Of a stretch of 64,000 bases of DNA, positions 32,509 through 35,880 are shown one piece after another. A program made the position numbers and the translations under genes. The stretch comes from Planctomycetota bacterium (GTDB lineage Bacteria; Planctomycetota; UBA8742; UBA2392), in contig JAOSKM010000001.1 in the NCBI GenBank assembly GCA_027493625.1, positions 1,579,489 to 1,643,488 of the forward strand. The letters run 5' to 3'. Position 1 is the stretch's first letter. Every line of letters begins with the position of its first letter. The notes beneath the pieces were generated by a model. The model was not told the DNA's origin, searched no databases, and worked only from the letters and a program-made list of their open reading frames with translations.

Positions 32509-35500
32509 TCACTTCTTCAAAGCCGCAAACTTCGCCAGCCCTTCCTTCATGAACGCAAGGAACTCTTCCTTGGTCATGTTCGGCCTGTCGGCGGGCCATT
32601 CCAGCTTTGATAGGATGTTCCCGTCGGTATCGAGCACCATGTAAACGGGGATCGACCCGCCGCCGGGGAAAAAGCGCTCGAACACCTCACGCGGTTTGAT
32701 GTTTTTCTGGTCGTCGGTGTACTGGGCGATCAACACGAAGTCATCGCGCATCGACTCGAAGATGGCCGGTTCCGGCATGATGGACCGTTCCACGGTCCGG
32801 CAGTTCTTTCAGTTGAAGCCCGTGAAGTCGATGAACACCGGTTTGTTCTTTGCCTTGGCCTCGGCCATGCCGACGTCGAAATCCTTGTGCCAGGGCAGAT
32901 CGTGGTGGTCGTAGCCCTTCTCGCCTCCCCCCACCGCCAGCTGGATTCCCCCGTCTTTCGGCGGCGGCGGCAGGATGCCCTCCAGCACGTTGCCGTACTT
33001 GGCGCCGAACAGGCCGGGGATCATGTACAGGCCGAAGCTCAGGAACAGCACCGCCAGCACGCCGCGGATCACGCCGATCTGCTTCGTTTCCTCGTGGTCG
33101 TGGGGCATGCGGAAGAAGCCGAACAGGTACAGAGAAGTCGCCACGCTGGCCGCGGCCCATACCGCGATCACCACGTAGCGGCTGATCCATTCCGCGGCCA
33201 CGATGCCCCGGAAGGCCTGTTCCGCAGCGCTGAAGTACATGATGGCCAGCCCGACCTCAATGAAGCCGAACACCACCTTCATGGCGTTCATCCAGCCGCC
33301 CGACTTCGGCATTTTCTTCATCAGGCTGGGGAACTGGCCCATGATGAAGATGGGCAGCGCCATGCCCGTGCTGAAGGCCAGCATCGCGGCAGTCGGCACC
33401 CACACGCTGCCGGTGGCGGCCTGGGCCAGGAAAGTGCCGGCTATGGGGCCGGTGCAGGAGAAGCTGATCAGCGAGAACGCTGCGCCGCTGAAGAAGGCTT
33501 TGGCGTAGCCGTGGCCTTCTTTCTGGGCCGCCATCTGCTTCCTGGTGAACCACTGGGTCATGAAGGTGGGCACGCGCAGCTCAAACAGGCCCAGGAAGCT
33601 GAGCGCAAACACCAGGAACATGATGCCCAGCAGCATGTTCACATAACCGTTCGTCGCGATGTTCTGCGCCCCGGTAGCACCCAGCGCAAGCGAAGTAATC
33701 AGGCCGAAGACCGTGAAGGTGGCCACAATGCAGGTGCAGTAGATGAACGCTGTCAGCAGCGGCGACTTGCCCTTGTCGTGCTGGCTGACGAAGAAGCCGA
33801 TGGTCAGCGGCAGCACCGGCAGCACGCAGGGCGTCAACAGCGTAATGATGCCCGCTCCGAAGGCCGCTAGCAGCAGCCAGATGAAGCCCTTTTGGGCGGG
33901 CGACTCAGCTTCGGTTGCGTTGCCCTGCGAGAGACTGGCGGTGGCTTCGGTAGTGGCGCTCGCCACGCCCTCGGGTGAAATCTCGATACTTGCCACCCAG
34001 CCGAACTTGCGGTCGAGCATGTCCGGGTTGTCCCGGTTGAACTGGGTGCAGCCCATGTCATCGCAGTATTGGCCGCTGACCACGCCGAAGGCACGCAGCA
34101 CGCCGGGCCCGGCGTCCTGAGGCACCTTGAAGCGGTGCACGACCACGACTTCGCCCATCAGGTAGTAGTTGGTTTCTTCCAGTATCTCGTCGTAATGCTC
34201 GGTCCAGGCCGGGAACTCCCAGTCGCCCATGGCGACCAGGCCATCGTGGCCCTTCAGGGTAAGCGCCAGCGGCACCGCGAACTTGCTGGGCGTCTTCGGG
34301 TGGTGCAGGTGGTAGGGTTCGCCCTTGTCATTGGTCTTGAGCTTGAAGTGCAGCTCAAGCGTCACTTCACCGCCCGGCTTGATCTTGTTCGTGCTGAACT
34401 TCGCTTCGAAGTCAAAGCCCTTCTTCACCGGGTCCGTCGGCGGGCCGTACAGCCCTTCCGGCCAGGCGTCAGCCGCCTGCGGCAGTGCGGCTTTGGTGGG
34501 CTCCTCGGCGCGTACCGGCTGCACGGCCACGGGCTCGCCCTTGAGGAAGGCCACGAACTGGTTGGCCTTTTCCTTGGCGGGCAGCGTGGCGCCGCTGCGC
34601 CGCTGTACCTTGCCTTCCGTGTCCAGCACCGCGTAGTGCGGGATGCCGGCTGCGTCGTCCGGCTTGTACTTCTCCCAAACGGCGTTCGCCTTCGCGTCGC
34701 CCACGTCGGTCACGACGCTGACGATCACGAAACCCTTGAACAGCTCTTCCACTTCGCGAAGCGTGAAGACCTCACGCTCCATTTTCCGGCAGGGCCCTCA
34801 GTAGCGGCCGTTGAAATCCACAAGCAGGGGCTTGTTCTCGGCCTTGGCCTGGGCCAGGGCGTAATCGAAGTCCACGTAGAAGCCGTGCTCGTCGGTGGCG
34901 GAACTGGGGGCCGCGGGCTCGACGGCCAGTGTGGTCTCGACCTCGCCCTTGAACTCCTGCGCATCCTCGCCGGCATACAGCTCGACCGAGTAGCGGGCCT
35001 TGAGGTTCAGCTCACCCAAGGCGTCGGCGGGCACCTCGAAGCTGCAGGTGATGGTCACGCCATCGGGGTAGACCCACTCTTCGGAATCGTCATACACGTA
35101 CCTGGTGGGCTCGGGCCAGGACTCCTCCTTGAGTGACAGGCCGGAAAGCACGGTCCACTTGATGTCCGGCGTGTTCCAGTAGCCTGGGTTGTCCTTGTGG
35201 CAGGCGAACCAGCCCCTGGGGTACGCGAACGCAAGCTTGACCGTGGCCGTGCCGCCCGCCGTGGCGGGCTCTGCGCTGAGCGTAGCGGTCAGCTTTGGCT
35301 GTTCTTTTGCCGGTGCGGGGGCGACCTCGCCGGCGACTTCAATACTGGCCGTAAACTCGGCTTCGGCCTGGAAGCAGCCGTTTTCGTCGCAGAACTGTGT
35401 GTCGTGCTTGCCGCGCAGTACCAGGGTGCCGGCGGCGTCTGCCGGAACTTCGAAGGTGTAGGCGATGTCGAAGGTGCCGCTGAGCTCCCACTCTTCGCTG

Positions 35501-35781
35501 AATTCGTCCACGTGTTTGTGGGGCTCGGGCCAGGTTTCCTTCAGCTGCTTCAGGCCTGCGAGTTCCGTCCACTTTACGTTGATGGGCCCGCTGTAACCCG
35601 GGTTGTCCTTGTGATAGGCGTGGAAGCCATCGGGCACCGTGAAGCGCAGCTTGATGGTGTATTCTTTTCCGGGCTCAGCCAGGCCTTCGACGACAGGCGC
35701 AACGGAAACCGTCAGCCCTTCCTGGGCGACCAGCGCAGGCGACAGGGCCGCAAGCAGCAGCAGACAGGCGGCAACTCGCAT
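32509..35781 (-). CDS. DsbD-like thiol:disulfide interchange protein with two selenocysteines
   Basis: One continuous frame of 1,090 residues if UGA at 34800-34798 and 32811-32809 are read as Sec. Order: signal peptide (1-20); two DsbD-N-like domains (about 21-150, Cys pair QFCDENGC at 131/136; about 150-275); thioredoxin domain 1 with DFNGRY-U-GPC, Sec at 328; a third DsbD-N-like domain (about 440-605, QYCDDMGC at 573/578); the CcdA/DsbD membrane core (about 630-905) with both redox cysteines, LLTPCVLP (652) and SFSCTGP (776); thioredoxin domain 2 with DFTGFN-U-KNC, Sec at 991, and TDD near its end. In DsbD the membrane core carries electrons from the cytoplasm to periplasmic thioredoxin folds; here both CxxC sites are UxxC. 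RBS AAGGAAGGAG precedes ATG 35781. The final stop is also UGA (32511-32509), with no CxxC context. Sec machinery is not in the window. Confidence 0.85.
32782..32811 (-). promoter_or_regulatory. Candidate bacterial SECIS element 2 with Sec UGA
   Basis: UGA is 32811-32809. Sixteen bases later a TGGAA loop (32792-32788) caps a perfect 6-bp stem GGACCG/CGGTCC (32798-32793 with 32787-32782). The second loop base is G, and the spacing sits at the lower edge of the 16-37 range. Confidence 0.65.
34757..34800 (-). promoter_or_regulatory. Candidate bacterial SECIS element 1 with Sec UGA
   Basis: UGA is 34800-34798. Twenty-six bases later begins a GGTCT apical loop (34771-34767) on a stem GCGTGA/TCACGC, extended by A-U, G-U, G-C and U-G to 10 bp (34781-34772 with 34766-34757). 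Bacterial SECIS rules as known are a loop G in the first two positions and 16-37 bases from UGA; both are met. Confidence 0.75.
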
Positions 35782-35880
35782 GGAACTCCTTCCTTAGCAT
35801 ACGTCCCGCCGCACAACAGGACGCGTTCCCTATGCTACGAGACGGCGGCCTGATTTGGGCATGATTTTCTCGCCGCCCGT

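Follow-up and report, generated by a model that had tools for sequence, protein, structure and literature searches.

The 64,000-nucleotide stretch of DNA analysed here (the window) carries on its minus strand, at positions 32509–35781, a dsbD-like gene for which a reading as a double selenoprotein is strongly supported by sequence comparison. The product is very probably a secreted, membrane-anchored reductase of the DsbD type, in which each of two in-frame UGA codons would be decoded as selenocysteine (Sec, U) by SelB and tRNA-Sec with the help of its own in-frame SECIS element. The first-pass annotation had proposed one DsbD-like protein of 1,090 residues with two Sec, interrupted by two in-frame UGA codons that each replace the first cysteine of a thioredoxin (Trx) active site, and conceptual translation with TGA read as Sec confirmed this. 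Positions 35781–32512 form a single frame of 1,090 codons whose only internal stops are TGA at 34800–34798 (Sec328, in the context FNGRY-U-GPC) and TGA at 32811–32809 (Sec991, in the context FTGFN-U-KNC), each occupying the leading-Cys position of a Trx CxxC motif, and the frame is terminated by an ordinary TGA at 32511–32509. The conceptual protein has a mass of approximately 119 kDa, signal peptide included. A Shine-Dalgarno-like sequence, AGGAAGGAG (35786–35794), lies just 5' of the ATG, and residues 1–19, MRVAACLLLLAALSPALVA (35725–35781), resemble a signal peptide. Every TGA of the window that is flanked by 60 open codons in both directions was scored for codon-position GC bias on both sides; these two TGAs ranked top at 0.50 each, the next TGA scoring 0.32.

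Standard annotation would cut such genes into three pieces. For those pieces to be separate proteins, the UGAs would have to be true stops followed by restarts at an internal ATG (34782) or GTG (32793), and in-frame start codons are indeed present shortly past each UGA. However, restarting there would cut each Trx domain at its active site, and the fused protein is encoded in relatives that have Cys at one or both sites, which leaves this arrangement highly improbable.

The domain order of the full-length protein is putative signal peptide, N1, N2, Sec-Trx1, N3, DsbD membrane core and Sec-Trx2, all coordinates below being on the minus strand. N1 (residues 26–149; 35335–35706) is an nDsbD-like β domain identified by Pfam DsbD_N (E 3.5e-16) and by an AlphaFold model; its Cys pair is C131/C136, and C131 is invariant in an alignment of 16 relatives. 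The alignment and the model also delineate a second nDsbD-like β domain, N2 (residues 165–288; 34918–35289), and a third, N3 (residues ~440–609; 33955–34464), which has the Cys pair C573/C578. The Cys pair of N2 is lost in the window protein and present in its relative G002. Trx1 (residues 300–414; 34540–34884) is a periplasmic Trx-like domain with the active site U328-G-P-C331, matched by Pfam Thioredoxin_7 and Thioredoxin_2 and seen in the model. The membrane core (residues 628–936; 32974–33900) is matched by Pfam DsbD_TM (E 8.6e-31) and coincides with helices of the model; its cysteines C652 (TPCVLPVLP) and C776 (SFSCTGP) are invariant in 16 relatives. Trx2 (residues 960–1089; 32515–32904), with U991-K-N-C994, is a C-terminal DsbD-γ-like Trx domain according to its Foldseek matches 3f9u, 2fwf and 2fwh, of which the last two are the C-terminal domain of DsbD, and to a phmmer match to 3f9u. 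The DsbD features present are DsbD_TM with two conserved Cys, DsbD_N with C131/C136, and a C-terminal Trx in which Sec replaces the first Cys.

The AlphaFold model (mean pLDDT 76.6, pTM 0.40) contains three β-sandwich domains, two Trx folds and a helical core; as predictions the individual domains are credible, but their relative arrangement is not. Foldseek searches with the full multi-domain model gave mostly generic Ig-like matches, and the DsbD-type matches alone were used. The three DsbD-N-like domains of the first-pass annotation are borne out by agreement between model and alignment, with Pfam DsbD_N over threshold once only, and its two Sec-Trx domains and one membrane core have counterparts in the two Trx folds and helical core of the model. 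N2 is the least conserved region between the window protein and G002. Additional nDsbD-like domains are found upstream of Trx1 in relatives (L019, L020, L021 and L057), and the number of N domains differs greatly within this family.

A homologue survey covering 149 relatives and 392 genomes of the phylum showed that the membrane core with Trx2 is widespread and that UGA is common at site 2, the position of U991. In the 41 sequences examined in detail, site 2 is UGA in 33 and Cys in eight; site 1, the position of U328, is UGA in 6/13 and Cys in 7/13 of the sequences that have Trx1. Every alignable relative examined has either Cys or UGA at these positions. All four combinations of site 1 and site 2 occur inside one family: UU in G000 (the source genome), G002, G010, G013 and G015; CU in G004, G006, G011 and G014; UC in G001; and CC in G003, G005 and G009. 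This natural series provides a ready means to ask what Sec contributes at each step, and serves equally to ask how one message has two UGAs decoded.

The survey also bears on whether the gene is a Cys-type dsbD broken by two nonsense mutations, either as a pseudogene or through sequencing errors. At least once, in selB, the assembly does have an apparent indel, but the same two UGAs are found in the independent assembly of G002 (JAJVIO010000075.1), as they are in another genus, where three genomes carry both. Moreover, selection is purifying past both UGAs. Compared with G002, dN/dS is 0.39 before the first UGA, 0.09 from there to the second UGA and 0.11 beyond it, and the segments 3' of each UGA are therefore at least as constrained as the 5' segment. 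Together with hairpins that go with the UGA forms, described below, these observations make a broken gene extremely unlikely.

The source genome (4.7 Mb in 6 contigs), placed in the Planctomycetota by its near relatives, has tRNA-Sec (selC; anticodon TCA, Rfam 73 bits), an adjoining selA (547 bits), selD (394 bits) and selB (317 bits), the last frameshifted near its C-terminus in this assembly. The break in selB (L009:529–2592, minus strand; contig C2 near 870,000–872,050), which counts against the Sec reading, falls near codon 492, and the SECIS-binding, winged-helix-like C-terminal part runs on in a different frame. In eight of the family members searched, the selB match spans model position 1 to 571 or further with no stop. 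Most relatives have an intact selB, and the break is most probably due to an indel in the assembly. The selD gene (L047:1501–2424) itself carries an in-frame TGA (HGAGUGCK), and SelD of this genome is likely to be a selenoprotein too. By a hand tally over the genomes searched, 49 of the 50 with a UGA-containing match had selA over the cut-off, versus 20 of the 27 without UGA (Fisher p 0.002). The lone exception, G078 (L062), has UGA at site 2 without selA or selB above cut-off, and may represent an incomplete assembly or a decaying gene.

Genome-wide reassignment of TGA to Trp, Gly or Cys would account for the open frame and nothing more. The gene terminates with TGA, its Trp residues are encoded by 21 TGG codons, and the two internal UGAs sit at Cys columns only; with tRNA-Sec, selA and selD all in the genome, the probability of such reassignment is close to nil.

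A candidate SECIS hairpin follows each UGA. Putative SECIS 1 (34757–34781) consists of a 10-bp stem, GGAGCGUGA, with the apical loop GGUCU (34767–34771) 26 nt past the UGA, a loop we take to be similar to that of Escherichia coli fdhF. The six UGA forms, which come from three lineages, can make between 8 and 10 of the 10 stem pairs, versus five or fewer for the seven Cys forms, a matter of presence versus absence only, as covariation analysis of this stem found zero compensated pairs. At site 1, the comparison of local folding with synonymous recoding showed no significant difference between UGA and Cys forms (p 0.31). Putative SECIS 2 (32782–32798) has a 7-bp stem, GGACCGU/ACGGUCC, that begins 10 nt after the UGA and a loop, GGA (32789–32791), at 17 nt. 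This stem is 100% paired in eight relatives: 56 of 56 cells are paired across eight UGA sequences of the window's clade, with 3 compensated pairs and the stem variants GGACCGU/ACGGUCC, GUCUCGU/ACGAGAC and GAACCGU/ACGGUUC. Covariation was 0.52, versus 0.17 for shuffled sequences and at most 0.28 with the partner slid. Local folding at site 2 relative to synonymous recoding gave a mean z of −1.40 for UGA forms and −0.13 for Cys forms (p 0.0017). The site 2 hairpins differ in other lineages, and neither an Rfam scan of the window nor a lax Rfam scan of the gene returned a SECIS family matching either hairpin. Bacterial SECIS elements have their apical loop 16–37 nt after the UGA (PMC10778597), a range that includes both spacings seen here. 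Three rival readings were rejected: a pseudogene, a recoded genetic code and three separate proteins.

The tree of the Trx1 block and that of the membrane core with Trx2 disagree. In the latter, the window protein, G002 and G004 fall together, and G001 stands apart with G005; a constraint uniting the window protein, G002 and G001 was rejected (p-AU 1e-31). In the Trx1 tree these three form one clade (96/95), and a constraint placing the window protein and G002 with G004 was rejected (p-AU 0.0013), for a short alignment and with tested groups that were named after the trees were known. This conflict suggests that the Sec-Trx1 block has a history different from that of the core, as by recombination, and we regard the sequence evidence for a separate history as moderate. 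One origin for all Sec-Trx1 was not rejected (p 0.10). The Sec-Trx1 module may have been exchanged between DsbD backbones; we would give even odds to a two-selenol transmembrane relay in which the Sec-Trx1 block and its own SECIS form a cassette moved among DsbD backbones of the same genus.

By analogy, the protein most likely acts in the manner of DsbD, relaying electrons from cytoplasm to periplasm through thiols and selenols. As expected from DsbD biology, electrons from cytoplasmic thioredoxin would reduce the membrane Cys pair C652/C776, which would reduce the C-terminal selenol-thiol pair U991/C994 in Trx2, and this in turn would pass electrons to the periplasmic Cys pairs of the N domains, C573/C578 (N3) and C131/C136 (N1). 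The U328/C331 pair of Trx1 would be an extra selenol-thiol step or a second outlet, and the order in which N3, Trx1 and N1 would take part is a guess. The final acceptors would be substrate proteins or some other oxidant; the genes beside the dsbD-like gene (purH, and genes for a GAF-GGDEF protein, a phosphoglycerate mutase-like protein and a phosphoribosyltransferase) were examined and gave no clue to the substrate. Sec would raise the speed of exchange and protect against over-oxidation. Bacterial multi-Sec proteins are few, and here each Sec would lie in its own catalytic domain of one electron-transfer chain.

Decoding two UGAs in series should reduce the amount of full-length product. Some truncation is unavoidable with two serial UGAs, and the model places two complete β domains within residues 1–327, so that the first UGA might conceivably serve as a selenium-sensitive stop that gives a soluble N1-N2 protein under low selenium. 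Such regulated decoding is improbable, however, as N2 is without a Cys pair and the short product would have at most one redox pair.

We compared the double-Sec protein with known systems. The Trx-like family cd02953 we take to be DsbD-γ. Thiol:disulfide interchange proteins with one Sec have been described (PMC1794560, PMC2398784, PMC13188914), and the Sec-containing protein of this name is listed as Trx-like 2, cd02953, with the motif UxxC (PMC2398784; table of PMC13188914). There, as in Trx2, Sec comes first in the CxxC of a DsbD-γ-type Trx, but one Sec is listed, whereas the window chain adds a second Sec-Trx and three N domains. TsoB, a rhodanese/DsbD fusion-like selenoprotein (NF045694), is likewise a two-Sec selenoprotein with a DsbD-like membrane domain; the window protein scored 181.5 bits against this model, with its best stretch in the membrane part and a cut-off of 805. 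In contrast to the two UxxC Trx domains of the window protein, TsoB is listed with the motif UxxxxU and a rhodanese domain, and a search of the window protein sequence for UxxxxU found it absent. DsbD of the E. coli type (PRK00293, NF001419) shares nDsbD, a two-Cys membrane core and a C-terminal Trx, but has Cys instead of Sec, a single N domain and no internal Trx. The score against PRK00293, 178 bits, is under the 330-bit cut-off, which places the protein as DsbD-like and outside PRK00293 proper. ScsB also has a large N-terminal periplasmic part and was matched by Foldseek (6c29), although this match is weak (TMt 0.40), and we know of no Sec or internal Trx in ScsB.

The first-pass annotation knew of no described double-Sec DsbD. 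Nor did the literature search turn up a DsbD with two Sec-Trx domains, a result of limited weight that covers openly available main texts; the main texts searched for DsbD or double-Sec DsbD (PMC1794560, PMC2398784, PMC5029168, PMC12013277, PMC13188914 and PMC4807772) held single-Sec entries and TsoB, and nothing further on a double-Sec DsbD. What looks new is accordingly confined to the double-Sec form, the single-Sec (UxxC) DsbD-γ-type protein being already known.

A second, separate double-Sec DsbD was observed in another Planctomycetota family, in G304 (L083, minus strand; G304:C14). The double-Sec form was not found in four family members of G304 that were searched. In G304 itself, a single frame encodes a membrane core flanked by two Trx domains, with FTGESUMAC in the first and FTGFSULNC in the second.
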